Virus record (IMG/VR): IMGVR_UViG_3300009474_000012
Location: 1 to 24,973 of that record
From: a virus
Reading direction: 5' to 3' (one strand)
Length of the DNA: 24,973 nt
Below are positions 1-24,973 of this stretch, piece by piece. The translations under genes and the position numbers were made by a program. Each line of letters opens with the position of its first letter. Position 1 is the stretch's first letter. The notes under the pieces were generated by a model that worked only from the letters and a program-made list of their open reading frames with translations, searched no databases and was not told the DNA's origin.

Positions 1-463
1 TTTTATATTTTTTTAACTTGTGTTCAGGTAGGTTTATTCTATATAAATATCTATTGTAATCATTCATTAATTCATCAAAAATATTTCCAGTAAATTTATG
101 ACTAGATTCCAAATCGTAACATGCATCTTTGTAAAAGTTATTTAGTTGTACAGCTCTATTATATACATCCATACTGTCTTGTGCTGTAGCTTTACCACCA
201 TATTGATATTTACTTACATCATCTTTTTTTGACATCCATCCGGCTTTGCCGCCAAATGTATATTTTCCGCCACCACATTTCATACAAGTGTTTACAGTTC
301 CACCTGACTTATGCATCTTGCCTCCGCATTTCATACAAGCAGAGCCACCATACTTATACGTTTCTCCACCATTTGCCATTTTGCTTGGTGACATATCACA
401 TCCACATTTTGCACAGGTTTTACCACCAGCTTTCATTTGGCAACCGCCTTTACATTTGTTCAT
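1..463 (-). CDS. Cys-rich CxxC / GG-repeat protein, 3' end beyond window
   Basis: Reading leftwards from an ATG at 463-461 gives 154 codons without a stop up to base 1, so the gene is cut by the window edge. Residues 1-75 carry repeated knuckles: C4-x3-C8, C17-AK-C20 (then C22), C43-MK-C46 and C60-MK-C63, the last two in the near-repeats ACMKCGGK and TCMKCGGG. Between them lie GG units (AGGK, NGGE, YGGS, SGGT, FGGK, YGGK). From about residue 95 the composition changes to an ordinary acidic/aromatic helical protein (DSMDVYNRAVQLNNFYKDAC). CxxC pairs suggest zinc binding, but this is inference. The GG units resemble those in the protein encoded just upstream, whose stop lies 21 bases before this start, so it probably belongs to the same virion cargo set. 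I do not recognise a family. Confidence 0.75.
   Translation of the reverse strand, partial: MNKCKGGCQMKAGGKTCAKCGCDMSPSKMANGGETYKYGGSACMKCGGKMHKSGGTVNTCMKCGGGKYTFGGKAGWMSKKDDVSKYQYGGKATAQDSMDVYNRAVQLNNFYKDACYDLESSHKFTGNIFDELMNDYNRYLYRINLPEHKLKKYK
194..463 (-). repeat. Coding repeats: CxxC knuckles alternating with GG units
   Basis: Within the partial left-edge gene, the segment encoding about residues 1-90 is built from degenerate short repeats. The clearest pair encodes ACMKCGGKM and TCMKCGGGK (around 325-340 and 265-286). The GG units recur every 7-20 residues. This is visible at the protein level; at the DNA level the repeats are imperfect, so they are not recent exact duplications. Confidence 0.55.
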
Positions 464-484
464 GACTTTATATTTTTAATGTTA

Positions 485-3400
485 TTAATTTCTTCTACCA
501 CCTGACGAATAAGGCTCACCACGAAGATAAGCTTTTTCTGCGTTATCTAACATCTTCTCTTTGATTTTATTAAACTCTGGCAGCCCACTTGCTGCATCTA
601 AGGCCTTATAATATTTTTTTGGAAATACAAGTGTACCTGGTCTAAGATGTAGCTTTACACCACCCTCTTCGTGAGTAGGAGCATCTGCAGGAATTTCTTT
701 AAGCAAGTTACCATTTTGGTCGTAAATGCGTTCGCTACGTTCTACTTCTACAGGTACCAAATCGGATTCACCGCCTTTAGACATTTGTTGATTGTACATC
801 ATCGGTGCAATGCTTTTATAGTTTTCACCAAAGTAACTTGCATCCTGTGGAGATTCAAATCTCATAGCTTCTTTGTTATATGGATTAGCATATCTATTAA
901 AAAATAGGTTACCATCTTGTCCTTCTTGTATTATCGGAAACATTACATTGCCATCGCTAGTAGTGTAATGAGTTCCTGTTGCTCCTGCTGGCACATCTAC
1001 CTTTTCATCGTAAAACATTTCGTCGCCAGTAAATGTGTATGTTTTGGGATATAGTGACGTCATACGTTTTGCAGCAGTATTTCCAAACTCTGCATCAGTT
1101 GCTATTCTTGCTTTCATCATTCCAGTCATAGCAGCTGTATAATCATCAGATACTGGATTGTAATCAGAAAACATATTTGTTGGTGCCTTAGGCAAGTTTG
1201 CCTCTAAACCATCTTGTCCTTTTTTCCAACCAGCAGCATTCTTAGCAAAGTTAGCCATTTTGACTACAGATGGAGAATACTCTTCTTTGTTAGCCATTAC
1301 TTTACTTGCTGCTTCTTGTACGCCCATGTCATGGTTTTGGGCCCAAGCTGTAAACTTGCCACGGTTTTCTGGTTTGATGTAAATGCCGGAACGTGCTTGT
1401 AAGTATGAGTTAGTTTCGCCTCCATATCTTTTTTGCGGTGTTTCTTGATTTAAAATATTTCCTCCAATAGTTGCAGCAGCGGCGCCAGTGCCTATTGCTC
1501 CAGGAATAACAGCAGGAGCTTCATTAAATATTTTTGATAAAGCAGAAAATTTCCATGGCGGTGTAAAAGATAAAAGTCTACCTGGTTCAATAAAAGCATG
1601 TTTAAATAATTTTAAAGGTGTTACTTTGTCGTATGTGTCTTTAAGTATACCTTTTTCAATCATTTTTCTTCTTGTTTCTCTTAAATGTGGATATGCTTCA
1701 TTATTCCATCTTCTTCCTCCAGATTGACTAAAGTATTTATAATCTCTTTCAACTTGTGGTCCTAAAACCTTCTTTGTAAACCATTCCCATCCTTTATCAT
1801 AAATATTTTTAGGCCTTATTAATTCTACTAGTTCTCTATCTATTGGCATTTGTCCACCTCTTTGTGTAGCGTGACCAAGTTCGTGATCTAATGTAAATAA
1901 ATCATCTGCATACCCTCTTCCAAGAGTAATTGAACCTGGTTGAAAATCTGGATTTGTAAATGGATTAGGTGGCCTATTTTTTAAATTAATAGTATTTGGT
2001 AAGTTAAAGGAAGTTTGTGTTGGTGTTGGTGTAGGATATGATGGATTATGATAAGCCCAATGAGCATTACCTAATGGAAATGTATCATTAAACCAATTTT
2101 TTACATCTGCTAGAGGATTATTTTCTATGTTTTCAACAAAATATTTAGGTTTATTATGAACAACAGATGCTTTTGCTTCGGCAATTCTTGTTTCTATTAA
2201 ATCATCTATTTCAGATGAAGTTAATTTTGGATTTTCTTTTTTAAATTGATTTGCTAATCTTCTTCTTCCTTCAGGAGTATTTATTCCTTCTTCGATTATT
2301 TTTAAACCTTTTTCTTCAATAAATTTTGAAACTTCTTTTGGATTTATTTTATTTCCAAAGTCGTCTATGTATTCATCGTTTATATTATTTAGCCCAATAT
2401 TTTTATTAGAAATAGGTCTAACTTTTGTATCTACTTGATGCATTGCTTTTTGAGCATCAATGGTTTGATCTGCAAACTTAAATCCTAAATTTTCATCTAT
2501 ACCGCTAACAACAGGATTTACTTCATTTTTAAAAAATGACACAGGATTGTCTATTGCTCTTTCAAGCATATTCATTTTAGGAGCATACTTTATTGCATTT
2601 GTAGTAGTTTTACCTATACCAGTTACTGCTGACAAAGGTTTAGTAAACATAGCAGGACCAGGAGTAAGAATATCTAATCCCATTGCTAAGTATGGATTTT
2701 TTTCTCTATCTACTCCAAGATAATCTGATAAGAACTGTTGTTGAGGAACCAAGTCAGACATTCCTTCAGCATTTAATGCCATTCTTGTAGGATTTGGCAA
2801 TGCTTTATTAAAATCATATTCTTTACCTTGTATTGCATTAACTCCTTCTGCAGTTAAAGCAAATGGAGTGTTAAATAACTCTATTGCTGGTTGAACTAAA
2901 TATTGTCCTAATGCTTTATCTACAGCACCTACGCCTTGCATAAATAAACTATTTCCAGAACCTCCAACACCTTCAGGTAATTTTTGTGTAATTTTAGTTA
3001 AATCGCCTGTATATGTTGATGGCAATGTTTGACTATGTCCAGAACCATATGTTTCTACAACTTGTGATTTTTGTGGTTCATTATAACCTGTTCCCCAACT
3101 ATAAGTAGGAGCTTGTGTGCCTGATTGTGCTTGCATGTATGGGTTAATCTTACCACCACTTTGCATTTCTTTCTGCTTGATTTTCTTCTCTTGTTCAAGC
3201 ATCTGCTTTGTTGGTTTGTTGCCAGAACCTTTGTTTGCTCTGATATTATCCCATAATCCACGTTGTGAGTACGAACCATCGGCACGTTTAATCATAGTGC
3301 CATTTCTAGCTGTATTTATAAATGGATTTTGCATGTCATTTTCGGCTAATTTTAACATTATATTAGATGTTCTAGTTTTTAAATCAGCTTTTTCTTCTGG

Positions 3401-4528
3401 TGTCATATCTTCATATTTTTGATTGCCAATTAAAGGTTTTCTTAAATTATCAGTTTTAAGGTTTCTGTAAAAATCATCTTTAAATATATAATCTATATGT
3501 TCATCTTCTATAATGTCACCATATTTCCATGGTTTTTTAAATGTGCCTTCTGGAACATTTTCTAACATATGCTCAACTTGTCTTTTTCCTGCCATTACTT
3601 CTTTTGGCAATGAATAGTACGAATCGTCTGTTTTAATGTTTTTGCTTATTAACTCATTTGCATAAGGAGTTAAATTATTGTCTTGTTGGTAATAAGGTAA
3701 AGTTCCGTTTTCTATTTTTGCTTCACCCATATAAATATATGGATTAGTATAATCATTGTATGGTGTTTGAGTGCTATGCTCACTTTCATGAACTATAATA
3801 CTTTCCATAGCATCTTTATAAATAGGATCAAAAAGTATTGGGTTTATTCCTATCCTACTAGCTCCTACATTAGCTACATTACTTGTTACAGAGCCTTTAA
3901 ATGGACCTTCTCTTTGGTATTCAGGTAGATTGTAATCAACACTAACTGTATGTAATCCACCTAATTTTTTGTCTATTATTTTATTTATTATATCTCTGTC
4001 ATATTTTATTTGTGTAGTTGGCTCTGCAAATTGTGTAGATGTATAACCAAGTTTTCTTTGTTCTAATAATTTATTTGCACCTGTTTTTGCATCATATTTT
4101 ACATTATTAAGTTTATTAGATTCTATTACTTCGTTTTTTAATCGTTTTAAATATTCTGGATTGTTAAGCCTATTGGCCATATATGTTTGTGCATTTGTTT
4201 TTGCTTTGTTAAAATAATCAATATTTTCTTGCAGATATGGATCATTTGGATATACAGGGTCTACAGGTTCTATTTTATATGGATTTACTTTTGTTATACC
4301 TCCTGATTCCATAATTGGTGTTTCATATACCATTTTACCAGGAAACTGATACTCTTTATTAGGGTACATCATTTGTCCATATCCAGTTTCATCTTGCCCG
4401 TACACAGGATAGTTTACTCCTTGCATAGTTATGCTTCCATCAGGAGTAGGTACAATAGTATCTTGTCCCGGATAATCCCATTGTCCTCTTTTGCTAACAA
4501 TGGCTTTCTTGTTTAGATATGGATTCAT
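485..4528 (-). CDS. Giant cargo/structural protein with two zincin-like modules
   Basis: 1347 residues, ATG start, five bases after the upstream gene. Visible layout: N-terminal low-complexity part with NPYLNKK and SGGITKVNPY; a first HExxH (HESEH, H247-H251) followed by E310 in PKEVMAGKR; a joint near 410-480 with SGGKINPYMQAQSG; a long helical middle; a second HExxH (HELGH, H882-H886) followed by E944 in NNEAYPHLR; a Gly/Ala-rich helix (PGAIGTGAAAATIGG) that may insert into membrane; YGGETNSYLQARSG; a basic helical motif at about 1050-1107 (KPENRGKFTAWAQ then ANKEEYSPSVVKMANF); and a C-terminal part with HEEGGVKLHLRPGTLVF near 1286. The HExxH plus downstream Glu pattern is that of gluzincin metallopeptidases. 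Its place after the muzzle and another cargo-like gene suggests an ejected or virion-packaged protein, perhaps acting on the host envelope or on virion proteins. Function is inferred, not shown. Confidence 0.75.
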   Translation of the reverse strand: MNPYLNKKAIVSKRGQWDYPGQDTIVPTPDGSITMQGVNYPVYGQDETGYGQMMYPNKEYQFPGKMVYETPIMESGGITKVNPYKIEPVDPVYPNDPYLQENIDYFNKAKTNAQTYMANRLNNPEYLKRLKNEVIESNKLNNVKYDAKTGANKLLEQRKLGYTSTQFAEPTTQIKYDRDIINKIIDKKLGGLHTVSVDYNLPEYQREGPFKGSVTSNVANVGASRIGINPILFDPIYKDAMESIIVHESEHSTQTPYNDYTNPYIYMGEAKIENGTLPYYQQDNNLTPYANELISKNIKTDDSYYSLPKEVMAGKRQVEHMLENVPEGTFKKPWKYGDIIEDEHIDYIFKDDFYRNLKTDNLRKPLIGNQKYEDMTPEEKADLKTRTSNIMLKLAENDMQNPFINTARNGTMIKRADGSYSQRGLWDNIRANKGSGNKPTKQMLEQEKKIKQKEMQSGGKINPYMQAQSGTQAPTYSWGTGYNEPQKSQVVETYGSGHSQTLPSTYTGDLTKITQKLPEGVGGSGNSLFMQGVGAVDKALGQYLVQPAIELFNTPFALTAEGVNAIQGKEYDFNKALPNPTRMALNAEGMSDLVPQQQFLSDYLGVDREKNPYLAMGLDILTPGPAMFTKPLSAVTGIGKTTTNAIKYAPKMNMLERAIDNPVSFFKNEVNPVVSGIDENLGFKFADQTIDAQKAMHQVDTKVRPISNKNIGLNNINDEYIDDFGNKINPKEVSKFIEEKGLKIIEEGINTPEGRRRLANQFKKENPKLTSSEIDDLIETRIAEAKASVVHNKPKYFVENIENNPLADVKNWFNDTFPLGNAHWAYHNPSYPTPTPTQTSFNLPNTINLKNRPPNPFTNPDFQPGSITLGRGYADDLFTLDHELGHATQRGGQMPIDRELVELIRPKNIYDKGWEWFTKKVLGPQVERDYKYFSQSGGRRWNNEAYPHLRETRRKMIEKGILKDTYDKVTPLKLFKHAFIEPGRLLSFTPPWKFSALSKIFNEAPAVIPGAIGTGAAAATIGGNILNQETPQKRYGGETNSYLQARSGIYIKPENRGKFTAWAQNHDMGVQEAASKVMANKEEYSPSVVKMANFAKNAAGWKKGQDGLEANLPKAPTNMFSDYNPVSDDYTAAMTGMMKARIATDAEFGNTAAKRMTSLYPKTYTFTGDEMFYDEKVDVPAGATGTHYTTSDGNVMFPIIQEGQDGNLFFNRYANPYNKEAMRFESPQDASYFGENYKSIAPMMYNQQMSKGGESDLVPVEVERSERIYDQNGNLLKEIPADAPTHEEGGVKLHLRPGTLVFPKKYYKALDAASGLPEFNKIKEKMLDNAEKAYLRGEPYSSGGRRN
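1697..1885 (-). other. Second zincin-like active-site module (HELGH ... E)
   Basis: Codons for H882-E-L-G-H886 lie at 1885-1871. The candidate third zinc ligand E944 (context NNEAYPHLR) is at 1699-1697, 58 residues after H886. The helix preceding the motif (DDLFTLDHELGHATQ) has the usual hydrophobic-x-x-HExxH-x-x-x pattern of zincin active-site helices. All predicted catalytic residues are present, so activity is plausible. Confidence 0.7.
3599..3790 (-). other. First zincin-like active-site module (HESEH ... E)
   Basis: Codons for H247-E-S-E-H251 lie at 3790-3776. The candidate third ligand E310 (context SLPKEVMAGKR) is at 3601-3599, 59 residues after H251. The active-site helix reads ESIIVHESEHSTQTP. 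The spacing and the E-[AV]-x-x-x-x-[LK]?-R context match the second module of the same protein, pointing to an old internal duplication or acquisition of two related domains. Confidence 0.65.
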
Positions 4529-4533
4529 TATTT

Positions 4534-5643
4534 TTATTTTAAATATGGATTTACTTGCGTGCCATTTCTAGCATAACCAGTATAGTCAGGCTTCATATTT
4601 TCTCTTGCATCATCAATACTTTGCATAGTATCTGTTGCAAGTTTTTTATTTTCGTAACGATCTTTTTGTTTAGCGTACTTAATAGCGTTTTTGATTAAAT
4701 CAACCGTACCGCCTATTGCCATTCCTGCAGGCCCAAAGCTAGAACCTATTTGGGTAAAAGTAGAATCGCCAAACATTGTTCCAAATGCATTTGGTTTTGA
4801 CATTCCTACACGTTGGTCGTACGTAGATGCATTAGTACCAATAAGCTTAGTTGCAGCACCAATACCAGCACCTAGTAAAGATGTTCCTGCTGTTCCTGTA
4901 AATGCTTTTTTTGTATCGAATCCCATTTTACCCCAGTCACCAAGCACATCGCTTTTTAGTCCATTGTCAACTACATTTTCTGCAGCAGGCACTCCTTCTA
5001 CGGATGGCTTATTAAACATATTTGTCATCCAGTTACCACCACCTGCCTGTTCTGCTGTTGAATTCGGCATTATTTCTGGAGTAGTTGCAATAGGTGGTGT
5101 TACTTGTGTTTGAGTTGGAATAGATGTATTTGTCATTGCTGACAATGGCTTATTCAATAACTGATTTCGAATAGCCAAATAAGGATTACCATATTTAGAA
5201 CTATCCTCCTTTGCCAAATCATATGCATTTAAAGTGTTGCCCTTATATGGACTTCCTATTAAAGGCATTCCACTTGCAGGCTGAGCAGTACTAGGATAAA
5301 ATTGATTTCCAACTGTAAACCCTAGACCTTTATCGGTCATTTCATATTTTAGCTTGTCTTGTGGGTTGTACTGATTAGTTGATGTTACATCTCCTTGAGC
5401 AATAGATACTTTTTGCTCGTTAGTCATTGATGCAGTTTCAGGACTTTGTATAGACCCTTGCTGTACAAAGTTTGTTCTTTGGTTATATGTTGGAGATTGT
5501 TGTGCGGCATTTAAAAATGGATTGCCACCAAACTGCTGTAACATTCCAAATTGTTGATTGTACTGCTCTTGTGTTGCAGGAACAAACTGTCCATTGTTAT
5601 CAAAATATCCAGTCTGTCCGTTGAGTGTTGTAAATGGAGGCAT
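4534..5643 (-). CDS. Probable virion cargo/ejection protein
   Basis: 369 residues, ATG start two bases after the muzzle gene. The first 190 or so residues are low in complexity and rich in Q, N, P, T and G (TQEQYNQQFGMLQQFGGNPF). Two Gly/Ala-rich helices follow at about 250-268 (SLLGAGIGAATKLIG) and 300-325 (GPAGMAIGGTVDLIKNAIKY), then a charged helix and the ending YARNGTQVNPYLK. Gly-rich amphipathic helices in a small protein placed after the tail-nozzle gene recall internal/ejection proteins of podoviruses such as T7 gp14, but this is an analogy of position and composition, not recognised homology. The NPYLK ending is echoed by MNPYLNKK at the start of the next gene. Confidence 0.6.
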   Translation of the reverse strand: MPPFTTLNGQTGYFDNNGQFVPATQEQYNQQFGMLQQFGGNPFLNAAQQSPTYNQRTNFVQQGSIQSPETASMTNEQKVSIAQGDVTSTNQYNPQDKLKYEMTDKGLGFTVGNQFYPSTAQPASGMPLIGSPYKGNTLNAYDLAKEDSSKYGNPYLAIRNQLLNKPLSAMTNTSIPTQTQVTPPIATTPEIMPNSTAEQAGGGNWMTNMFNKPSVEGVPAAENVVDNGLKSDVLGDWGKMGFDTKKAFTGTAGTSLLGAGIGAATKLIGTNASTYDQRVGMSKPNAFGTMFGDSTFTQIGSSFGPAGMAIGGTVDLIKNAIKYAKQKDRYENKKLATDTMQSIDDARENMKPDYTGYARNGTQVNPYLK

Positions 5644-5645
5644 AG

Positions 5646-8600
5646 TTATGCAAATGAAAGGTTAAAATAAGTCATTAGTTCTCGTACCCAAAGTTCTTTG
5701 TCGCCATCGTATTCTAGTTCTACAATAAGATATCGGCCGCGCATGGGTGTTTTGTCAAATCCAAAGTCATCGTAAATATTTAGTTCTGGTTCCTTAACAT
5801 TATCTGCTCTTCGTATAGGTAGTCTCCATTCGTTTTCTCTATATGTTGGAGCGTACCAAAACTCTGTAGTTGGTTGGAAAGGCCTTTGCTCTGCTAGCTG
5901 ATGTTGCGTTTCAAACTTAATAGCACTAAATACTCTGTTGTTACTTGTAATAACAATGTTGTCATAATGCTTAGTAATTTCTGCTCCTTCGGCAACAGAT
6001 ACTTTTATTTTCCAAATATCTTGAATGTTATAGAAGTTATCGTACTTATCTTTAACATCATGTAGCCAGGCTTTATTGTCAACAAAGCTATAAAGGTCTT
6101 CCTCTACCTGTGCGTACATATTTGGCTTGTAGCCATGTGTACCCAAGAACGTGTCCATTTCTTCTGAGAAAGCAATAGTCTTTGTTTCTTCGCCAAGTTT
6201 TAATGTCCAAATAACTTCCTTGTATTTTCTATTATACACTCCGTGTATACCTAATCCGCAAGTATGAGCGTTTGGCAATACTTCAAGAGCATCGCTATAT
6301 CCAGTAGAACCAATAGCAACTATTCTTCTAAACCAAGATTGTACACCTTTTTCTACATCGAGCATTTGAACTTCACCACCAGCAACTCTAAGCACTGCAC
6401 GTTTATTCCAATCAATGCAGTATAATGCCTGATTAGCTTTGATTACGCCAAATCTATGTTGAGTACCATATCCTCTTTTTATAACTTGTCTGTATTCTGT
6501 AAGTCCAGTAGATTGCCCTAATATTGCCGTACTACCTGATGTGCTTTGCTGTGTGACACGTTCATTGATTGGGTGTAGGTTTATTGCTCTATTTTGGAAA
6601 GAATACAAGTAATCGAACATTACAGCTAATGCTTGTATTTCTCCTGCTTCGTAGTCAAAGTCTTTTGCATCTGCAGGAATAAACTGTCTGTAACCATCGC
6701 GAACTGCACCAAAGATATGTTTAAGGCTTGGTCTTATTCTTGTTGGAAATCTATTGTCACTTAATGGTTGCAACAAATCAATACCTACTCCTGCTCGTGG
6801 GCCCAAGTATTCAGACATTCCTTTATTGTAAAAGAAACTTTCTGGACTATCATATATCCAGGCAAAGTCAATACCAGGGTTAAGAGGATTAGTTTTTGGA
6901 TAGAAATAGTTTCTTCCAAGTTCGTATCTGTAGTTTGGATTGTACTTATTTTCTGTAACAACACTTACCCAATGGCCATAACCTTTTTGAAATGAATCTA
7001 ATGCTTCTTCTGCATTTGTATTTTGTACAGGCGTAGCAGTCCCTATTACATTTGATAGTATATCATAAAATTCTTGTGATATATTTTCATTGCTAGCGTT
7101 TTGAAGTTTTAAATATGTTCTTGAAACAATACAATCACCTCGATAATATGTATGTTGAGCTGATGCTAAGAAATCTGTTATATTTTGAAACTTACTTATT
7201 GGATAAAACTCTGTATTCTTGAAATCATAAAAATCTGTATAGGTTAATGTGTTTGGATTTGCTATGTAAGTATTAACTATTGATCTATTCCAAGCATCTA
7301 TATAATGATTGTATTGTGTTTCAAACGGTGCATTGTATGCTGGAGCATTTGTTATGGCAACATAATCAGGAGTAGCAATAGGTAAACTTATTTCATAAAA
7401 TGCAGAAGACGAATTAACTTCTCCTTTGTAATAATACAGTCCATCTTGACTTGCTATTTTTCCTTCATCAAAACGAGATACAAATCTTGTATTAGGAACA
7501 GCAGTCCATCCAACTATATTTAAACAGTTAGAACTAAATCCTTCTGGTGTTACAATATTTAATCCATTTTGATTATATCCAACAAATGTTTGAATTACTC
7601 CTCTATCTGGAATGTCTACATTGTTATAAAGCGGTTCAAATCTTATAAATGCTGGAGTTGTTGGACCAATATCCGTAGAAGATGTTTTCCAGTTACCTAT
7701 TGCAGACCTATCGTTTATTACAAATGGATTTAATGATGTTGATTCTCTTCTCCAATGATCAAAATATCTTGTTGTTGCAAGTAGTTCTACATAAGAATTG
7801 TCTGGCACATTTTCTCTACCAATATAATAATCTGTTGAAAATATTGCTAAACTATTTTTATCTACAAAATCATTTCTTTGATTAAATTCATAAGGTTTAG
7901 CGTAGTTAAAAGTTTTAAATGAACTTGCATTATTTAAGAATAATTCTTGATACATACAATATGTAGCAGGTTCAAATAATGGTATTATTCTTTCTGTGTT
8001 CCAATTTTCTTCTGTAACATTAAAACTTACAGGACTTGGGCCTTGAAAATATAAAGATATGTTATCCTTATATGGCCTTGGATTCATTTTACCATTATAG
8101 CAACGCAGACTTAATCCTTGAAATAAAAGATTAGGCTTACGATCTGCTCTAGTAACATATATGCCTTCAAGATTTTCTTGTAACCACAAAGACGTATTGT
8201 AAATAGTAGCAGCACCAGATGTATTTACATTAATACCTTTTATAAAAGTATTTGTGCCATCGTATGCCGGCGCATTAAAGTATCTTCTAAATCTAAATAT
8301 ACCTTGATTGTTACTATTGGCCATCGTATTAAGGTAGTTGTCATAACCTGTTACCGGATATGGTAATCCAGTAAAACCACCTTTAAATACAGGTACAATA
8401 GCAAAGCAATAAGTTTCTCCAGAAAAGTAACCTACTTTTTCTTCTGTTTCATTTCCATCTGTAGAATATGGATTATTATTTTGGTCTGTTCGTATTTCAT
8501 CGGCAGGACCATTGTTAGTATAGCTTTCTGACAAAGTAAGCGCACACATAAACTTACGCAAATCTGGATGATCTAGTACAGGCCCTCTAGTATTTGCAAG

Positions 8601-9680
8601 AAAAAATGTGTTAAATGCTTGTGCTATGTCTTTGCAGTAAAGAGCATCGCTAGGTTTGTATAAGACTAACTCATCAATAGTAAGTGCTACAAGTGGCTCA
8701 TTACCAGTAATGTTTACTCCTACTTGCGGATTGCCATTTACGCTAAATCTTTTATCAATCAAAAAGCATTCAAAAATATCTTGACCAAAATAACGTATGT
8801 AGCCTATTTCTATAAAAGGTATATTAATATCAAGGCCTGATACTAAAAGATTGACAGACTTGTTTGAAATATCGTCTGACTCTCCACTAAATGTTACAAC
8901 TGCAGCACCTGCATTGTTGCTTACAAATAATGGAACAGGCCCAGATTGACTAAGAAAAGATGTTGTTAAATAGTTTAAATCTGTGTACCTAACAAAGAAA
9001 AAATAGTTGCCTACTTTTAAACTTCCAGAACCATAATTTTGAAAATCAACTATTGGATGATTGGAGTTTTCATTTATACCATTTATGTAACCAGACTGTA
9101 TCATGCCGGCAGTTACATAACGATTGTTTGGCGCACCAGTTCTTAGTACAAATCCATTATTAACGCTACGCCATGGAAGATTATCGTCAGTCCAGTAAAG
9201 ATTAACAGAACCATCAAAATCCAACCTTGCTTCAACTCGCAATGGCTTGTCGCATTTAAACCCAAGCAATGGAGTGGTAAACTCTCCAAGATTAGTAACC
9301 GTTGAAACAAGACAAGATTCGTCAATATCTGGTATGTATATCTGAGCTGTATAGTTTCTTAATGGCCTATAATCTCTAGTTATGTAGTTTGTTGTTGGAT
9401 CGGGAGAAGGATAAGAACCAATCTCGCAAAAGCTTGTAGATGGATTGTATGAAAAGATAAAAAGGAATCCATCAAACTCGACAGACCCTATTGGCACATA
9501 ATCTTCTTTTAGTTGAAATGTTTCTTCGTTACCCTTAATGTTTGCTGCCCAAAGCGTTCCTTCTTCTCTTCTGGCAAGTCTTATGTTATGACCATCAAGA
9601 TAAATATCTTGTGATCTATCGGTAAGGCTCATGTCAGAGTTTAAACCCTTATAGAATCTGTTAACGGTGGGCTGTGCCAT
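5646..9680 (-). CDS. Tail muzzle / stabilisation protein (T7 gp12-like nozzle)
   Basis: 1344 residues, ATG start, one base downstream of the ring-protein gene. The N-terminus (MAQPTVNRFYKGLNSDMSLTDRSQDIYLDGHNIRL) is the usual opening of tail-nozzle proteins: a short strand with GLNxD followed by YLDGxNIRL. The rest is long, beta-rich and low in cysteine, as expected of a multi-propeller tail tube tip. In crAss-like phages this gene, called stabilisation or muzzle protein, follows the ring proteins and closes the short tail, forming the channel gate and binding fibres. The length fits that family. The C-terminal 450 residues look well ordered (KHIFGAVRDGYRQFI, WNKRAVLRVAGGEVQML). The central part, roughly 7,020-8,110, is more AT-rich than both ends. 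Confidence 0.8.
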   Translation of the reverse strand: MAQPTVNRFYKGLNSDMSLTDRSQDIYLDGHNIRLARREEGTLWAANIKGNEETFQLKEDYVPIGSVEFDGFLFIFSYNPSTSFCEIGSYPSPDPTTNYITRDYRPLRNYTAQIYIPDIDESCLVSTVTNLGEFTTPLLGFKCDKPLRVEARLDFDGSVNLYWTDDNLPWRSVNNGFVLRTGAPNNRYVTAGMIQSGYINGINENSNHPIVDFQNYGSGSLKVGNYFFFVRYTDLNYLTTSFLSQSGPVPLFVSNNAGAAVVTFSGESDDISNKSVNLLVSGLDINIPFIEIGYIRYFGQDIFECFLIDKRFSVNGNPQVGVNITGNEPLVALTIDELVLYKPSDALYCKDIAQAFNTFFLANTRGPVLDHPDLRKFMCALTLSESYTNNGPADEIRTDQNNNPYSTDGNETEEKVGYFSGETYCFAIVPVFKGGFTGLPYPVTGYDNYLNTMANSNNQGIFRFRRYFNAPAYDGTNTFIKGINVNTSGAATIYNTSLWLQENLEGIYVTRADRKPNLLFQGLSLRCYNGKMNPRPYKDNISLYFQGPSPVSFNVTEENWNTERIIPLFEPATYCMYQELFLNNASSFKTFNYAKPYEFNQRNDFVDKNSLAIFSTDYYIGRENVPDNSYVELLATTRYFDHWRRESTSLNPFVINDRSAIGNWKTSSTDIGPTTPAFIRFEPLYNNVDIPDRGVIQTFVGYNQNGLNIVTPEGFSSNCLNIVGWTAVPNTRFVSRFDEGKIASQDGLYYYKGEVNSSSAFYEISLPIATPDYVAITNAPAYNAPFETQYNHYIDAWNRSIVNTYIANPNTLTYTDFYDFKNTEFYPISKFQNITDFLASAQHTYYRGDCIVSRTYLKLQNASNENISQEFYDILSNVIGTATPVQNTNAEEALDSFQKGYGHWVSVVTENKYNPNYRYELGRNYFYPKTNPLNPGIDFAWIYDSPESFFYNKGMSEYLGPRAGVGIDLLQPLSDNRFPTRIRPSLKHIFGAVRDGYRQFIPADAKDFDYEAGEIQALAVMFDYLYSFQNRAINLHPINERVTQQSTSGSTAILGQSTGLTEYRQVIKRGYGTQHRFGVIKANQALYCIDWNKRAVLRVAGGEVQMLDVEKGVQSWFRRIVAIGSTGYSDALEVLPNAHTCGLGIHGVYNRKYKEVIWTLKLGEETKTIAFSEEMDTFLGTHGYKPNMYAQVEEDLYSFVDNKAWLHDVKDKYDNFYNIQDIWKIKVSVAEGAEITKHYDNIVITSNNRVFSAIKFETQHQLAEQRPFQPTTEFWYAPTYRENEWRLPIRRADNVKEPELNIYDDFGFDKTPMRGRYLIVELEYDGDKELWVRELMTYFNLSFA

Positions 9681-9681
9681 T

Positions 9682-10323
9682 TTATCTTAAATTAAAAAAC
9701 TGAGCATTACGCAGCATCCATGCTGTGCTTTCCATATCATCTATACTAAGTTGTCTTGTGTCGCCTATTGCTACTTGGTAATGATTAGCCGCTTCTTCTT
9801 CAAATAAACCATAAACATCAGGTCGCATCTTACCTCTAACTAGTTCATCACGAGCAAGTATTCTTATTACTTCATACGCACAATAATCTAACTGACTTGG
9901 CGCTATCTGTATTTCTTGGCAGCTTTGTCCATTTTCATCAGTTACTTCTACTGTTGGAACAGCATAGTAATCAATGTAAATAGTACCCTCTCTTATCCAG
10001 GATGGTTTAATGTGTGTGTTTGTTTTATCGTAACGGCCGAAAGATTTTAACCTTGTTGATTCCATTGCATCACCAGTTCTAGCGCCATGGCTATTATCTC
10101 CGTACGCGCGTAACAACCTAAGTAGGTCGCATGGAAGTTCGCCAATGCCGTTTGTTATTTGAACAGGCACAGCGGCTTTTGTAATCATTGATATTGCAGC
10201 TCTGGAGTCTATTGCGCATTTATACACCAATCTCTTAATTCTTGGGAGATTTGACGACACGTCTATAAAGTCCGCTAAGTCTGTTATGCGCTGCAATACG
10301 TTCCTGTATGTCAATACTTTCAT
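9682..10323 (-). CDS. Tail ring / head-tail adaptor protein next to the muzzle
   Basis: 213 residues with an ATG start. The helical N-terminus (MKVLTYRNVLQRITDLADFI) and the pattern GELPCDLLRLLRAYGD, IYIDYYAVPTVEVTDENG, then a helix starting IAPSQLDYCAYEVI, match the fold logic of T7 gp11/P22 gp4-type adaptor rings: helix bundle, small beta domain with a Pro-[DC]-[FL] turn, and a C-terminal helix. Position immediately before the muzzle gene fits the lowest ring of the crAss-like tail barrel. The first 89 bases overlap the end of the preceding gene in another frame. The next internal Met is 46 residues on and would remove the N-terminal helices, so the long start is kept. Confidence 0.65.
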   Translation of the reverse strand: MKVLTYRNVLQRITDLADFIDVSSNLPRIKRLVYKCAIDSRAAISMITKAAVPVQITNGIGELPCDLLRLLRAYGDNSHGARTGDAMESTRLKSFGRYDKTNTHIKPSWIREGTIYIDYYAVPTVEVTDENGQSCQEIQIAPSQLDYCAYEVIRILARDELVRGKMRPDVYGLFEEEAANHYQVAIGDTRQLSIDDMESTAWMLRNAQFFNLR

Positions 10324-10945
10324 ATTCTCTTTTTTTAAGAATGTACGCGTTCTTTAGCTTTCTTTTTAGTTCGTTTTCTAATATCACTATTGGATAATAA
10401 TCTGAAATGCGCTCTATCGTTCCCGGAACTATTGAAAGAATAAGATTCTCAAAGTTAGTAAAAATACCTTTATCTTTAAACACTCCTATTTTAAAATATC
10501 CTTCAAGTGTACGATTATTTGTTCTAGTTGCTGCAAATGTAATCTTGTTTCCTGTTTCTATCATGTCATCAATCAACAACTTTATCAACAAATCAGCCAG
10601 GTACATTACAAACTTTTTCTTCTTTCTTTCAAACATCCCTTTTGGCTGTGTGTCTGTATCTGGAAGCCATTTTCGTTTTATAAACCTACCTAACTTTCCT
10701 ATGCGCACTGCTCGATGTAGATTTCTTTTTTGGTCGTAATCCCAGTTGTTTTCGTCAAAGAATATCCTATAGTTTATGTTATCAAAGTTATCTATTTTTC
10801 TGTTTAGCCTGTATCTTTTCTTTCTTATAAAATAGTTTGTTCCGTGATTTCTGTAGGCTTTTTTCCTTTTTATTAACTTCCTTTTTGTGATTCCCAAGGG
10901 TCTGTATACCACAGTCCCCCCTCTCTCGGTATTGATCTTTTCCAT
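10235..10945 (-). CDS. Basic protein of unknown function, neck gene cluster
   Basis: 236 residues from the ATG at 10,945. Strongly basic N-terminal third (KRKLIKRKKAYRNH, RKKRYRLNRK, FERKKKKF), then a helical hydrophobic segment (YLADLLIKLLIDDMI) and a mixed part with KITFAATRTNNRTLEGYFKIG. There is no recognised family. The basic character suggests binding of nucleic acid or an acidic partner. The start overlaps the previous gene by 73 bases and the end overlaps the next by 89. A TTG about 50 bases inside could give a shorter product with little overlap, so the start is uncertain; the reading frame itself is long and its stop is fixed. Placement among ring genes suggests a virion or assembly role. 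Confidence 0.6.
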   Translation of the reverse strand: MEKINTERGGTVVYRPLGITKRKLIKRKKAYRNHGTNYFIRKKRYRLNRKIDNFDNINYRIFFDENNWDYDQKRNLHRAVRIGKLGRFIKRKWLPDTDTQPKGMFERKKKKFVMYLADLLIKLLIDDMIETGNKITFAATRTNNRTLEGYFKIGVFKDKGIFTNFENLILSIVPGTIERISDYYPIVILENELKRKLKNAYILKKREYESIDIQERIAAHNRLSGLYRRVVKSPKN

Positions 10946-11322
10946 GGCGGTGTAAATAAATCTACATCCTTTCCTGATGTTTCGTCTTCGTAAGCGCTTT
11001 TTACAGGTGGATATTTTAAAGAATCAGTTTCTACAAAATTTTTTGACGTTACTACAAGCATTAAAAAAGAACCCTTTACGGTTGGCCATAAATATTCTCC
11101 TTCTTTGCACGTAGCAAAAGCATTGATATTGTAATTTCTTAAAACTTCCTTTGGCACTCCACCGCAACCACAACCAACTTCTACGTCTTCATATGAGTCA
11201 AACTTAAACTGCATACCTTGATAAATAATATACCTTTTACCAAATGGATCTACAGTCACATAGTTTTTTTGCGCTTCAACGTACAAGTCATTGTACTTTA
11301 AGTTTTTTTGTAATCCTGGCAT
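10873..11322 (-). CDS. Small virion/neck protein with CGCGG motif, unknown
   Basis: 149 residues; the ATG overlaps the stop of the upstream gene by one base (TAATG). The sequence looks like a compact beta-rich protein (KRYIIYQGMQFKFDSYEDVEVG) with the short metal-binding-like motif GCGCGGVP and an aromatic, proline-rich C-terminus (FTPPWKRSIPREGGLWYTDPW) that could act as a docking arm. No family recognised. Its position between two ring-type genes makes it a candidate minor ring or connector component. Confidence 0.6.
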   Translation of the reverse strand: MPGLQKNLKYNDLYVEAQKNYVTVDPFGKRYIIYQGMQFKFDSYEDVEVGCGCGGVPKEVLRNYNINAFATCKEGEYLWPTVKGSFLMLVVTSKNFVETDSLKYPPVKSAYEDETSGKDVDLFTPPWKRSIPREGGLWYTDPWESQKGS

Positions 11323-11951: not shown

Positions 11952-12367
11952 GTTCGTAGTTTATGGGTTAATACAGTTATTGCTGATGATATAGGAATGC
12001 CTAAAATCCAAATATATAATGGGTACTGGTTATATACAATCCAGTAAATCAATGTTCCATAAAAAGAAGACATACATACCATACATGTCAGCAATGGCTT
12101 GTGCCATAGATTGCGATAAAGATGTAATAGTTCAAGCTTTTGCAATGCCGGGTTAATCCACTCTGAAGATTGGTATTGTCGTCTTCTCATTTCCTTGTAT
12201 CCAGATATTTCTATCTTTCTCTTGTCTAGTTTTATAGACCTAGATATATTTTCCATCCACGCTTTAATCGGGTATAGAATGCCGCCACTGTTGGCAGCGG
12301 CACTCAAACCCTGTGTAAAAAGCGAAACTAAGACAGAAAAGAACAAGGTCTCGCTCAGTATCATCAT
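11948..12367 (-). CDS. Small two-to-three-helix membrane protein with CxxC
   Basis: 139 residues; ATG at 12,367 shares one base with the upstream stop. An N-terminal hydrophobic helix (ILSETLFFSVLVSLFTQGLSAAA) is followed by a basic cytoplasmic-looking loop, then a hairpin of two helices at about 92-135 (LTCMVCMSSFYGTLIYWIVY and PLYIWILGIPISSAITVL). The CMVCMSSFYG motif resembles the CxxC-S-x-W/Y-G motif of small DUF1360-type membrane proteins found in phages; that match is from memory. A membrane protein between virion genes is out of place for a structural role and may act on the host envelope or be a late accessory gene. Confidence 0.6.
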   Translation of the reverse strand: MMILSETLFFSVLVSLFTQGLSAAANSGGILYPIKAWMENISRSIKLDKRKIEISGYKEMRRRQYQSSEWINPALQKLELLHLYRNLWHKPLLTCMVCMSSFYGTLIYWIVYNQYPLYIWILGIPISSAITVLTHKLRT

Positions 12368-13524
12368 TACTCTCCTACGTAGTTTACGTATTGTTGTGGA
12401 AGAGAAATAACAGCGTAATCTCCAAATGCATCAATTGGTGCACCAAATGTAATAACACCAGCAGCTTCTGAAATAACACCAGTACCGCCAAAGATTGCAT
12501 CAGCATTAGATACAAAATCAACAAGGCTAGTGCCTGATACAGAGAATGACAAAGAACCAATAGTAATTACATACGTAGTTCCGTCAATTGCATCAAATTC
12601 AAGTGAGCTTGCGTCTACACCAGTAACTGGTCCAATGATGCCTGATTGATATCCAGGAGCATTGTCAAGTCTATTACATGGATCTATTTCATTAATAAGC
12701 GAATCAATAAAATCGTTAAATCCAGGAGCAGCGCTGTTTACATACATTATCAAATCAAATGGCGTAGCACCTGTGTGTAGGTGTCCGCTATTTTGATTGT
12801 CATAGAAATCGCTACATGCGTCAATACAACCTTTGAGTTTGATTACGCAAATAGTCTGGCACCACATAAACTGATCTCTTGGTGCTTCGCCAAATACGTG
12901 ACCTACTTCTTGCGGGAACTGCTGTAGTAGTTTTTCTCTACTAAGAATAGCTTCTACGCCATCTTGGATTTCAGTAAATAAAGGAACTTCAGTAGAAGCC
13001 AAGTTATTGTTTGGCAACTGATAAATACCAAGAAGATTGTAAGTAGCTAATCCAGAACATGGTAATGTCAATGTTAATACAGCGCCATTTACTGTTGCTT
13101 CAAGCAAAAACTGATCGTGCTGATCATTTTGATTTTGAAGGTCAAGAATGTAAGTATAAAACCATTGAGCCAATGCAATACCTGTTGTAGATACAGCGTC
13201 TATTGGACCTTGATATACATATTGCTTACGCTGATTGTATTCAAAATAGGTTTGGTTGTCAAAGTCTGGATTTCTGTCAAGTAGTAATGTGAAACCATCA
13301 GATTTACCACATTCGTTACAAGGACCAAAATCAACATCTTGAAACTCAATTTCCCAAACATTTTGCTGACAAGGCGAAGCACATACTTTTTCACATCTTC
13401 TAACAGATTCTGCTAGGATAGATATTTGATCGACGATTCTGATTTCACCAGGAAAGTTAGGGTCAGTGCTGATTGTACTGCCTGATGGTGAAGGAATCCA
13501 AAGTTTTTGAGCATTACTTTGCAT
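12367..13524 (-). CDS. Cysteine-rich virion protein, unknown function
   Basis: 385 residues, ATG start, 20 bases after the upstream gene. The N-terminal region carries ordered cysteines: RRCEKVCASPCQQN (C-x3-C-x3-C), GPCNECGK (C-x2-C), and later WCQTICVIKLKGCIDAC (C-x3-C-x6-C-x3-C). The C-terminal third (from about 290) is a Gly/Ser/Thr/Val-rich beta region (TYVITIGSLSFSVSGTSLVDF) like small beta-sandwich domains of phage decoration or fibre proteins. Position between a ring-type gene and the membrane-protein gene suggests a head or neck accessory protein. I do not recognise a named family. Confidence 0.55.
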   Translation of the reverse strand: MQSNAQKLWIPSPSGSTISTDPNFPGEIRIVDQISILAESVRRCEKVCASPCQQNVWEIEFQDVDFGPCNECGKSDGFTLLLDRNPDFDNQTYFEYNQRKQYVYQGPIDAVSTTGIALAQWFYTYILDLQNQNDQHDQFLLEATVNGAVLTLTLPCSGLATYNLLGIYQLPNNNLASTEVPLFTEIQDGVEAILSREKLLQQFPQEVGHVFGEAPRDQFMWCQTICVIKLKGCIDACSDFYDNQNSGHLHTGATPFDLIMYVNSAAPGFNDFIDSLINEIDPCNRLDNAPGYQSGIIGPVTGVDASSLEFDAIDGTTYVITIGSLSFSVSGTSLVDFVSNADAIFGGTGVISEAAGVITFGAPIDAFGDYAVISLPQQYVNYVGE

Positions 13525-13544: not shown

Positions 13545-14267
13545 CTATGTTGGTACATTAGGCGGAGGTGTTTGTAAAAAATTTCTTTCAGTTATTGGAA
13601 GCATTGACTGAACTCTTGGATCTTTAATAGTTTCAAGATATGATATTACACAATGTTTTACAATCTCTAGCGTCTGTGGCCATGCAAACTCTGAGTCTAC
13701 ATTGTTTTGATTTGTTACATCAAAAAATATACGCTGAGGTAATCTCAAATATGCAATCTTTACATTTTGAACTATACTGTCTCCGCATCTAAATGTAAGT
13801 CTGTTACCTCTTTGATCGTAATAAAGATTTGGCCATTCGGCAGACGGCTTTTTATAGTAGTCATCTTCTATGGTAAATCTAAAATCATCTTTCAAGTGAG
13901 TAGCAGAAATATATCCAGATATAGTATTATCAACTTCGCAAGGTTGATTTATGTACTTTACTTTGACAGATACAGCCAGTAGGTGAAGATAATTGGCAGG
14001 CAATTGTACATATTCTTGTCCGGCAACAGCAGGTCCAAGATTTACCAATGGCGCAGGAAATCCCGCAATGCCATCTGTTACAACCTTTATGACAGATAGA
14101 TCGTCTATTTGTTTTTGATGCTGCTCATGAGCCCAATACCTGTTTTTGACATATTCAAGTGTAGCTATCCAAATGTGATAGTTAAACTCATCAGGAGTCA
14201 TACTAGTGGTATTATAATGCTTTAGTTCAGCAAGTACCGCCTTATATACTTCAACTACTGGTACCAT
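13545..14267 (-). CDS. Ring protein / head-tail connector candidate
   Basis: 240 residues; ATG shares one base with the stop of the upstream gene (TAATG). It begins with an adaptor-like helix pair (VVEVYKAVLAELKHYN, PDEFNYHIWIATLEYVKNRYW), then a beta domain containing YVQLPANYLHLLAVSVKVKY, where a Pro-x-x-[YF]-hydrophobic turn leads into a strand, RLTFRCGDSIVQNVKIAYLRLP, and finishes with a helix (LEIVKHCVISYLETI) and a proline-rich tail (TPPPNVPT). This is the T7 gp11-like connector layout. Being the first such gene after the capsid genes, it may be the ring that contacts the portal, by analogy with crAss-like tail barrels. Confidence 0.6.
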   Translation of the reverse strand: MVPVVEVYKAVLAELKHYNTTSMTPDEFNYHIWIATLEYVKNRYWAHEQHQKQIDDLSVIKVVTDGIAGFPAPLVNLGPAVAGQEYVQLPANYLHLLAVSVKVKYINQPCEVDNTISGYISATHLKDDFRFTIEDDYYKKPSAEWPNLYYDQRGNRLTFRCGDSIVQNVKIAYLRLPQRIFFDVTNQNNVDSEFAWPQTLEIVKHCVISYLETIKDPRVQSMLPITERNFLQTPPPNVPT

Positions 14268-15451
14268 TATTGATTATCAATATAGTTAGTCAAATATTCC
14301 TTTGCTTCCTTAAGGCTTGAATTTTCCGTGAAATCATGAACAATATTTTCATTATCCATGTAGTCAATCAACTGCTTTATGTTCATAAACTTTAAGTTTG
14401 CAGGAGCTTGCTTTTTTGTTGAAGTTACAACATTTGGTTCTCTCTTTACTTTAAGTCCATGTTTAGAAAGAAACGATACAGATGCGGCATCACGAACATA
14501 TCTTTCTTTTTCGATTTTGTTCTCGCCAACAACAATACCTTCAAGTTCTCTATAAGCTTTTATCAAGTCAAAATGCGTATCGATTTTAACCATCAGTTCG
14601 CTAAAGCTATCAGCAAGATGTGTTTTTTGTCCATAAACCGTAGGGTTTTTGAAATATGGACCATCAATACTACTTGCTTCAATATGACCTGAATGTATTA
14701 ATGCTTTTGCACAAATATAGTTCTCTTTCTTTTCAGTATCATGGGCACGTAACACTTCGTAAGGCATAGAGAATGCAACTTCGTCAAAGATTTCCTCAGC
14801 AATATCCTCATTGATATAAGGGTCTGCAGGATAGTCACCATCAAGAATAAGTATTCTAACACAGTCACGTTTCTGTTTTTTGCTAAGTTTGTCAATGAGC
14901 GCAGCAGCACCTTTTCTCTTTTTGATTTCTTTTTCTTTCTCCTGCTTCTCTTCTTCTTTAGAAAAGAAATAAAAGAATGCTCCATGGTCTAAAGCTTCTT
15001 GTTTGTCTTTTCCGATTGTAGATACAACCTCAAAAAGAACACGCACATAAGCTACATCGCGTGGATTAGAAAGATTAAAAAGTTGCCCTTCGCTTAACGA
15101 AAGAACAGAATCAGGGTGATACGGTTTCCCTGTTAGTGGATTTGTTGGTTCATTCAAGTAAAAGAATGGTACACCGCATTCTTCGTTGATGATTCTCTTT
15201 TCTTCCGATGTAAGACCATTTGCCCAGTAACCTGCAATCAAACCAGAACTGTCAAAAACTGGTGATGTATTGCCTGTTGCCAAGTCATCTATTTCAGGTC
15301 TTTTCTCGTCACGAAAAGTAATACCATCTTCACTAACATTTACTGTTTTGTACTTTTGTACCGCCCTAACTTCAAGATAGCCAGTTCCAAGAAGTCCTGC
15401 CTTTCTCAAAAGTTCTTCGTGTTGTTTTGGATAAAAAATTGTATTGTTCAT
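14267..15451 (-). CDS. Charged protein after the capsid gene, unknown
   Basis: 394 residues from the ATG at 15,451 (a GTG twelve bases upstream is possible but less likely). Visible parts: an N-terminal region with YLEVRAVQKYKTVNVSEDG and GNTSPVFDSSGLIAGYW; a middle helix block; a very charged linker near 170-185 (KEEEKQEKEKEIKKRKG); and a C-terminal helical half ending in ASSLKEAKEYL-like sequence. Directly following the major capsid gene, it could be a head accessory, packaged or assembly factor. No family recognised, and no catalytic motif seen. Confidence 0.6.
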   Translation of the reverse strand: MNNTIFYPKQHEELLRKAGLLGTGYLEVRAVQKYKTVNVSEDGITFRDEKRPEIDDLATGNTSPVFDSSGLIAGYWANGLTSEEKRIINEECGVPFFYLNEPTNPLTGKPYHPDSVLSLSEGQLFNLSNPRDVAYVRVLFEVVSTIGKDKQEALDHGAFFYFFSKEEEKQEKEKEIKKRKGAAALIDKLSKKQKRDCVRILILDGDYPADPYINEDIAEEIFDEVAFSMPYEVLRAHDTEKKENYICAKALIHSGHIEASSIDGPYFKNPTVYGQKTHLADSFSELMVKIDTHFDLIKAYRELEGIVVGENKIEKERYVRDAASVSFLSKHGLKVKREPNVVTSTKKQAPANLKFMNIKQLIDYMDNENIVHDFTENSSLKEAKEYLTNYIDNQ

Positions 15452-15480
15452 AATCTGTTTCACTTTTAAGTTAATAAATA

Positions 15481-17043: not shown

Positions 17044-17048
17044 TTTTT

Positions 17049-24457: not shown

Positions 24458-24649
24458 TTATTTGTATTCAATTATAGGTAAATATTTAACCCACCAGCAA
24501 TCGATGTTTTCGTTATAATAAATTTGATAAAGTGGTAAAATCCAAGTTTCATTCGACATTCTTAATGGTGTAAATAAATGTCCTGTTACGTATTCCTTGT
24601 TTTCTAAATATCTTTTTTCATCTTCATCTAATAAACCTGCTATCATCAT
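24458..24649 (-). CDS. Small hypothetical protein in the lysis module
   Basis: 63 residues; ATG overlaps the upstream stop by four bases (ATGA), which supports translation from the same message. Acidic N-terminus (MMIAGLLDEDEKRYLENKEY) and an aromatic C-terminal half (WILPLYQIYYNENIDCWW). No membrane helix, signal peptide or recognised motif. Tight coupling to the lysis enzyme and holin genes suggests a minor lysis or late function. Confidence 0.5.
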   Translation of the reverse strand: MMIAGLLDEDEKRYLENKEYVTGHLFTPLRMSNETWILPLYQIYYNENIDCWWVKYLPIIEYK

Positions 24650-24973
24650 ATCTCAATTAGTGTAAAGTTTATTTTCTGATTTGCTTTAAATATTTTGATA
24701 GCCTCAAACCAACGAGCATCAGGAACAACCATACAACCTGCACTCCATTGGTCCACAATTGACCCTAAACCGCCCCTGTGGAAGTTTATACCATACCAAC
24801 CTTTGGTCTTAATTGTCTTATCAATAGTGGCGTTTTTATTCCCATCTCTGTATATTTCAACCGCTCCAGATTGAAAGAAATAAGGAGCACCGAGCCAAAG
24901 CGATTTCCAATTTGCAGAAGTAACAAAAGTATGTGATCCGATTACTTGCTGTTCACACGCCACCGCTACACCT
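24646..24973 (-). CDS. L,D-transpeptidase (YkuD)-like lysis enzyme, 5' end beyond window
   Basis: The frame stays open to the right edge, so the start is not in the window (a GTG at 24,963 is only an internal possibility). The visible 100-odd residues contain GINFHRGG (His codon 24,780-24,778) and, sixteen residues on, WSAGCMVVP (Cys codon 24,735-24,733). The His...S-x-G-C-x-x-x-P arrangement is the YkuD L,D-transpeptidase active-site pattern with the nucleophilic Cys present; the Arg usually found two residues after the Cys is replaced by Val. As it sits beside two holin-like genes it is best read as a cell-wall active enzyme, perhaps an endopeptidase/endolysin built on this fold. Substrate cannot be told. 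Confidence 0.6.
   Translation of the reverse strand, partial: GVAVACEQQVIGSHTFVTSANWKSLWLGAPYFFQSGAVEIYRDGNKNATIDKTIKTKGWYGINFHRGGLGSIVDQWSAGCMVVPDARWFEAIKIFKANQKINFTLIEI

Follow-up and report, generated by a model that had tools for sequence, protein, structure and literature searches.

Crassviruses are the most abundant human gut viruses, and gp45 of phicrAss001 has been found in virions, where part of its structure is resolved at the portal and the tail barrel (PMC10172136). Phage polyvalent proteins can carry one to five zincin-like metallopeptidase (MPTase) domains, HExxxH forms included, and about 8% of the MPTase-bearing ones have more than one such domain (Iyer et al., 2017; PMC5512222). 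The same study describes N4-like virion RNA polymerases (RNAPs) of short-tailed phages that are fused to one or more MPTase domains. In the podoviral ejection proteins of the T7 gp15/gp16 group, enzymatic domains move between related phages (PMC8954989). Our literature search, which covered papers outside subscription, found none joining crassviruses with zincins, metalloproteases, or polyvalent proteins.

The DNA analyzed here (hereafter, the window) comprises 24,973 nt, i.e., positions 1 to 24,973 of the IMG/VR virus record IMGVR_UViG_3300009474_000012, and belongs to a phage that carries crass-type muzzle, capsid, portal, and terminase. Its ORF 485-4528 lies near the muzzle gene, like the crassviral C1/gene49 cargo, with one short ORF in between (Table 1). 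Residues 1049-1107 share 59% identity over 59 aa (E = 2e-15) with the C1 protein of cr128_1, a match that concerns the domain and not the full length, and 40% identity (E = 6e-4) with residues 376-423 of phicrAss001 gp45. This domain is encoded in the gene immediately past the muzzle gene in cr128_1 and Rudgehvirus jaberico, and in the gene following that of a large virion structural protein in cr108_1. Residues 1246-1347 also match a cargo-region ORF of Flavobacterium phage Fpv1. The proximity of the muzzle gene and the domain in common with gp45-type cargo indicate that the product of ORF 485-4528 is very probably a virion cargo or ejection protein, as the earlier note had proposed. From its homology with gp45 (PMC10172136), it is predicted to enter the host together with the DNA.

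Table 1. Location of the cargo-protein gene, its segments, and the adjacent genes in the window
Feature	Position	Strand	Observations
Cargo-protein ORF with both HExxH modules	485..4528	(-)	1347 aa
Conserved C-terminal segment, aa 1246-1347	488..793	(-)	90-97% identical in relatives
Shared cargo domain, aa 1049-1107	1208..1384	(-)	homologous to C1 domain of cr128_1, cr108_1, Rudgehvirus jaberico, and phicrAss001 gp45
NSYLQARSG linker, aa 1040-1048	1385..1411	(-)	
Module 2, zincin-like, aa 722-1012	1493..2365	(-)	elsewhere only in the neighboring cargo gene of L007
E944, putative third zinc ligand	1697..1699	(-)	context NEAYPHLR; same in L007
HELGH motif	1871..1885	(-)	aa 882-886, module 2
Platform segment, aa 470-720	2369..3121	(-)	46-48% identical in relatives, regardless of the payload after it
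NPYMQAQSGT linker, aa 462-471	3116..3145	(-)	
RGLWDNI adaptor segment, aa 401-461	3146..3328	(-)	about 72-77% identical in relatives
Module 1, zincin-like, aa 95-400	3329..4246	(-)	29-50% identical in relatives
E310, putative third zinc ligand	3599..3601	(-)	context KEVMAGKR; same in all module-1 relatives
HESEH motif	3776..3790	(-)	aa 247-251, module 1
Conserved N-terminal segment, aa 1-75	4304..4528	(-)	92-96% identical in four relatives
Neighboring cargo ORF	4534..5643	(-)	369 aa, short here; longer in relatives by modules, including module-2 and module-1-like domains
Muzzle protein gene, places the locus	5646..9680	(-)	PF25731, E = 1.9e-39

The two HExxH motifs, HESEH and HELGH, are present in the ORF as had been reported, and E310 and E944 are found 59 and 58 residues past the second His of the respective motif. 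When the ORF was shuffled 20,000 times preserving its composition, 1.5% of the shuffles contained one HExxH or more, and 0.005% (5e-5) contained two. Scans with module 1 and with a muzzle alignment both returned the same four phages, in all of which the module-1 Glu is retained, E310 being invariant in the module-1 alignment (A2). One of them, L007, keeps all four ligand/motif positions, with a motif that reads HEIEH; in the other three (L002, L003, and L005), the motif is HEIGGH (HExxxH), a form that is under purifying selection (dN/dS 0.13). The neighboring cargo ORF of L002 and L005 encodes a further distant copy with EEIEH, in which the Glu is retained and the first His is lost, and thus, some module-1-like copies may not be peptidases. 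ORF 14066-17947 of L007 (HEIGH at 1079-1083, and E1171), the sole known relative of module 2, shares all four positions with it, so that this conservation is that of two sequences; the scans of viral contigs and two scans of genome contigs provided no other. The catalytic-type Glu after the first-His position is present in every copy of both modules, HEIGGH included.

The AlphaFold model of module 1 has a mean pLDDT of 67, falling below 50 in the region where a beta sheet is expected. HESEH lies, with moderate confidence, inside the helix 141-159 of this model, and E310 on the helix 214-229. The fold itself could not be matched in structure libraries, since Foldseek returned nothing at E<=0.001 from PDB and BFVD, and the best row of a second-look structural alignment (Z 3.4, rmsd 5.2, 133 residues), in which the match is to an alpha-ketoglutarate-dependent oxygenase and its HExxH domain, is too weak to count. 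The module-2 model (pLDDT 44) is unusable. No Pfam, PHROGs, or NCBIfam family scored above the cut-off for the modules; the best sub-threshold Pfam matches of the HExxH slices of the relatives were SprT-like and another zincin family, the best one being SprT-like (E = 0.0066) for module 1 of L007. No meaningful match emerged when PDB sequences were searched with profiles, and when each module was compared by tblastn with 50,697 phage records, the matches were at chance level or absent. The zincin sites postulated in the earlier note thus find support in the retained motifs, their helical placement in module 1, and the sub-threshold zincin matches, but neither a family above cut-off nor a fold match accompanies them. 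We consider a zincin fold likely for both modules, which would bind zinc and carry out proteolysis.

A different picture emerged for the relationship between the modules, which had been regarded as two related domains, tandem and equally spaced. The motifs are about 630 residues apart, and a linker and the conserved platform segment lie between them. The distance from HExxH to the Glu varies in the relatives (59, 54, and 52 in module 1; 88 in module 2), and therefore, the 58/59 match is not a family property and is coincidental. The alignment of the two modules with hhalign, using profiles that are shallow, matched either 21 N-terminal columns, with a probability of 11%, or the 11-residue HExxH helix alone (38%). 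A tandem duplication was rejected, given that these profiles revealed no homology between the modules outside the HExxH helix. The two sites belong to separate modules, probably zincin-like domains of different families.

The four relatives share 98-99% identity in the capsid protein and 95-96% in the portal, yet only 29-50% in module 1, and module 2 is either missing or located in the neighboring cargo gene, while the ends of the cargo protein are 90-97% identical. A module-1-like domain is identical over 314 aa (dS 0.006) in two phages whose muzzle genes show a dS of 0.41, and between these two phages, the identity steps from about 70% to 96-100% near an NPYLKAQYGT linker. One recent exchange boundary is located near an NPYL linker. 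No direct DNA repeats of at least 30 nt occur within the two cargo genes of the window, and thus, any exchange in this genome left no long repeats.

In our opinion, the locus probably encodes a modular crass-like virion cargo with two exchangeable zincin-like payloads that would be ejected to cleave host targets, the ejected payload protease being the likeliest role. The conserved ends and the gp45-type domain would keep the protein in the particle, a packaging predicted from homology, and the region between the ends would consist of payload modules that are open to exchange and connected through NPYL-type linkers, two of the modules here being zincin-like metallopeptidases of different families. 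Stored in the capsid or in the tail, the protein would thread out partly unfolded before the DNA and regain its fold in the cytoplasm or the envelope of the host, where the modules may bind zinc and cut host targets involved in defense or physiology. More tentatively, this group of crass-like phages could keep a polymorphic payload system, with a conserved carrier that is ejected and whose effector modules, proteases among them, swap at the NPYL-type linkers between neighboring cargo genes, so that near-identical virions would deliver differing effector sets against different host defenses, and the two zincins would cut distinct host proteins.

The zincin modules might instead process the cargo protein itself, or its neighbors, before, during, or after ejection to free other domains, a role put forward by Iyer et al. 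for phage P1 DdrB, which is cut prior to packaging, and for other polyvalent MPTases (PMC5512222). The modules are flanked by other segments in a long protein, which would agree with such self-processing, but in relatives, proteins with the same ends are entirely devoid of module 2 and have module 1 as HEIGGH or EEIEH, which implies that a cargo protein of this type can work without any cut by these modules; we regard this alternative as possible, although doubtful. It is rather unlikely that the modules are metal-binding domains or zincin-like helix pairs devoted to other chemistry or to binding (a pseudo-peptidase or an oxygenase-like HExxH protein). The EEIEH copy and the oxygenase row mentioned above, if it were not so weak, would point in that direction, whereas the catalytic-type Glu of every copy, and the earlier description of the HExxxH form among MPTases (PMC5512222), point to proteolysis.

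The processing of capsid or tail proteins during virion maturation, also contemplated in the earlier note, fits poorly and seems very unlikely. The gene does sit within the late structural block, but the modules are wholly different among phages with such similar capsid and portal proteins, and module 2 is lacking in relatives at that level of capsid identity; exchange within a cargo gene among near-identical virions favors host-directed payloads over maturation. Least probable of all is that the HExxH strings arose by chance in a fast-evolving cargo protein, since two motifs are so rare in the shuffles and the residues are retained in relatives at 30-50% overall identity, even if the poor models and the lack of a family match would be compatible with chance.

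That phages whose capsids are nearly identical differ in this payload points to effectors aimed at the host, and the cargo gene offers defined modules for expression and testing. The suggestion that a double zincin of this kind had no described example does not hold, because Iyer et al. reported polyvalent proteins with multiple MPTase domains and MPTase-fused N4-like virion RNAPs (PMC5512222). The protein adds to a described class, as a variation on a known theme, and it is not a first case. Like the polyvalent proteins, it is large and multidomain, is encoded beside virion or late genes of a mobile element, and combines one to several HExxH/HExxxH modules and a downstream Glu with a variable architecture and a predicted ejection with the DNA. 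In contrast to them, its modules reside in a crassviral gp45-type cargo with conserved ends and have no curated Pfam match, and the zincin-like sites are the only ones recognized in ORF 485-4528, family searches having revealed no second enzymatic activity and assigned none to the platform and shared segments.

With phicrAss001 gp45 (C1) and the gene49 homologues (PMC10172136), it shares the location near the muzzle gene and a domain of 50-60 aa, and gp45 also has a GG-TNPY linker. However, it is longer than gp45 (1347 vs 842 aa) and contains HExxH, a motif found in none of 15 cargo-region ORFs from seven named crassviruses, gp45 included. Swapped enzymatic domains are common to the T7 gp15/gp16 group (PMC8954989), there of the peptidoglycan-hydrolase type and here zincin-like. 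The conserved carrier with exchangeable payloads also recalls polymorphic toxin cassettes, by resemblance only; unlike in these, no immunity gene was recognized, and the exchange is internal, between conserved ends. Finally, the N4-like virion RNAPs with MPTase domains (PMC5512222) resemble our protein as ejected proteins of short-tailed phages with at least one zincin per polypeptide, but ORF 485-4528 has no RNA polymerase. In a sister phage (G004), one RNA-polymerase-type protein of 7,505 aa has a GSDxDVD motif, which is of the RNAP type, and two HExxH.

The muzzle and major capsid protein genes of this virus record of 24,973 bases match crassvirus families (table below); for its portal and terminase the matches are to head-and-packaging families of PHROGs. 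Among annotated proteins, those closest to the muzzle share just 21-27% identity with it, over part of its length, which puts the phage at a great distance from the named crassviruses. The same locus occurs in four phages from public viral contigs (L002, L003, L005 and L007).

Features discussed in the text and their coordinates
Feature	Location	Strand	Remark
ORF with both HExxH motifs	window 485-4528	-	1347 codons
Muzzle gene	window 5646-9680		PF25731, E=1.9e-39
Major capsid protein gene	window 15481-17043		PF23898
EEIEH module-1-like domain, L002	ORF 2356-5997		aa 1025-1029
EEIEH module-1-like domain, L005	ORF 14080-17679		
7,505-aa ORF, phage G004	L044:7479-20000, continuing into L045:1-9993		
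Counterpart in phage G001	L047:1-19833		

The gene order of phicrAss001 is muzzle gene gp44, then the cargo genes gp45 and gp46 and the RNA polymerase genes; gp45 has been detected in virions by mass spectrometry and partly resolved at the portal and tail barrel (PMC10172136). In the window, a 369-aa ORF comes after the muzzle gene, and the 1347-aa ORF after that. Residues 1049-1107 of the latter match a domain of the cr128_1 gene located directly after the muzzle (59% over 59 aa, E=2e-15), which is also present in the Rudgehvirus jaberico gene directly after the muzzle and in the cr108_1 gene following a large virion structural protein; the match to residues 376-423 of phicrAss001 gp45 is weaker (40%, E=6e-4). 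Flavobacterium phage Fpv1 has a cargo-region ORF that matches the C-terminal segment. This domain homology, together with the position by the muzzle, supports the proposal of the earlier note that the ORF encodes a virion cargo protein, and we infer that it is packaged. The next cargo-region gene starts at 2-463 (minus strand) and contains many CxxC pairs (CMKCGGGKYTFGGK); in L002 and L007, the homologous genes run on into variable modules.

The ORF contains HESEH at aa 247-251, with E310 59 residues past the second His (module 1), and HELGH at aa 882-886, with E944 58 residues past it (module 2). When the residues of the ORF were shuffled, at least one HExxH appeared in 1.5% of the trials and two in 0.005%; therefore, the double motif reported by the earlier note is correct and exceeds chance. 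The sites are also conserved in homologues. In module 1 the motif is HEIEH in L007 and HEIGGH in L002, L003 and L005, and polyvalent proteins have been described with zincins of the HEXXXH variant (PMC5512222). Purifying selection acts on the HEIGGH form (dN/dS 0.13, L002 vs L003), so this form is not simply decaying. In L002 and L005, the adjacent cargo ORF holds a distant module-1-like copy with EEIEH; this domain, identical in both phages by recent exchange, is possibly a pseudo-peptidase. The downstream Glu is retained in all module-1 relatives, the EEIEH copies included. The one relative of module 2 lies in L007, in the adjacent cargo gene, and shares NTPEGRRRL, HE[LI]GHA and PHLRE with it; no counterpart was found in the other relatives within the reach of their contigs, the L003 record ending before this region.

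For module 1, AlphaFold (six sequences, mean pLDDT 67) places HESEH on helix 141-159 of the model and E310 on helix 214-229, as a zincin requires; ahead of the first of these two, where a sheet is expected, pLDDT is mostly below 50. The model had no match in PDB or BFVD, and a second structural comparison gave a best Z of 3.4. For module 2 the model, built from two sequences, had a pLDDT of 44 and was uninformative. Curated family libraries gave no match above cut-off; the hits below it, obtained with HExxH slices of the relatives, included a SprT-like family (L007 module 1, E=0.0066) and another zincin family (L007 module 2, E=0.046), both at the HExxH helix. With neither a fold match nor a curated family above cut-off, the zincin assignment is a prediction from the motif, its conservation and the placement on helices.

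The two modules do not appear to be duplicates. Comparison of whole-module profiles aligned just 21 N-terminal columns (11% probability), and comparison of the catalytic parts just the 11-residue HExxH helix (38%), so that tandem copies were rejected and the two related domains of the earlier note were not recovered. Since the profiles are shallow (six sequences for module 1, two for module 2), a remote common descent is possible. The equal spacing, taken as a shared trait, does not hold either: from the second His to the Glu there are 59, 59, 54, 54 and 52 residues in the module-1 relatives, and 58 and 88 in module 2. Judged from these sequences, the near-equal spacing within the window's protein is a coincidence.

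Between the window and its relatives, the capsid protein is 98-99% identical, the portal 95-96% and the muzzle 78-88%. The first 75 and last 100 residues of the cargo ORF are 92-96% and 90-97% identical, whereas module 1 is 29-50% identical, and the corresponding gene of the relatives contains nothing that matches module 2. In the neighbouring cargo gene, the DNA of L002 and L005 is mostly 89-97% identical over the first part, 65-74% over one module and 96-100% over the next, the rise beginning near an NPYLKAQYGT linker. This last module is identical over 314 aa, with a dS of 0.006 vs 0.41 for the muzzle genes of both phages, and therefore, from the sequences, it was recently exchanged between phages.

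The most likely mechanism is that the cargo protein, stored inside the particle, would be ejected before the DNA and refold, and its predicted proteolytic modules would then cleave host proteins; cutting of the cargo protein itself is the less likely alternative. Its basis here is the motifs, their conservation, the cargo homology and the exchange. The earlier note had proposed either a host-directed role or one in virion maturation. A payload that varies while the particle stays constant would be expected of host-directed effectors and not of a maturation protease, so only the host-directed role is favoured.

Polyvalent proteins, described by Iyer et al. (2017), are large multidomain proteins that phages and conjugative elements encode; in phages their genes lie beside late genes, and the proteins are predicted to reach the host cell along with the DNA. 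Zincin-like MPTase domains, one to five in number, occur in about 36% of them, with more than one in about 8% of this subset (PMC5512222). In short-tailed phages, N4-like virion RNA polymerases are likewise fused to one or more MPTase domains (PMC5512222), and hence the statement that no double zincin of this kind had been described was wrong. Swaps of enzymatic domains between ejection proteins have been described for T7-like phages (PMC8954989). What is new here is that zincin-like modules occur in a gp45-type cargo protein of a crassvirus, and that two adjacent cargo genes show direct signs of module exchange. Of 15 cargo-region ORFs taken from seven named crassviruses, none carries HExxH.

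HExxH is also present in giant cargo-region proteins of phicrAss001 (gp47), cr118_1 and Fpv1, and the Rudgehvirus jaberico record has an RNA polymerase gene annotated 'ZnMc_tr'. The 7,505-aa ORF of G004, a sister phage, has HEISH at 2488, HEFAH at 6097 and a GSDQDVD resembling GSDFDVD/GSDFDID of crassviral RNA polymerase proteins; neither Pfam nor PHROGs had a family matching it above cut-off, and its HExxH surroundings are 97-100% conserved in G001. Zincin-like sites in putatively ejected proteins look like a recurrent crassvirus feature.

In the structural block of the window, the protein encoded at 12367-13524 (minus strand) is 65-67% identical in all four relatives vs 93-99% for its neighbours, and is thus a virion protein that changes fast and may be exposed. 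Three genes of the same strand (9682-10323, 10235-10945 and 10873-11322, minus) overlap serially by 89 and 73 bases, and their proteins are 94-98% conserved. A truncated ORF at 24646-24972 (minus strand) contains GINFHRGG...WSAGC, which presumably recalls phage cell-wall enzymes.
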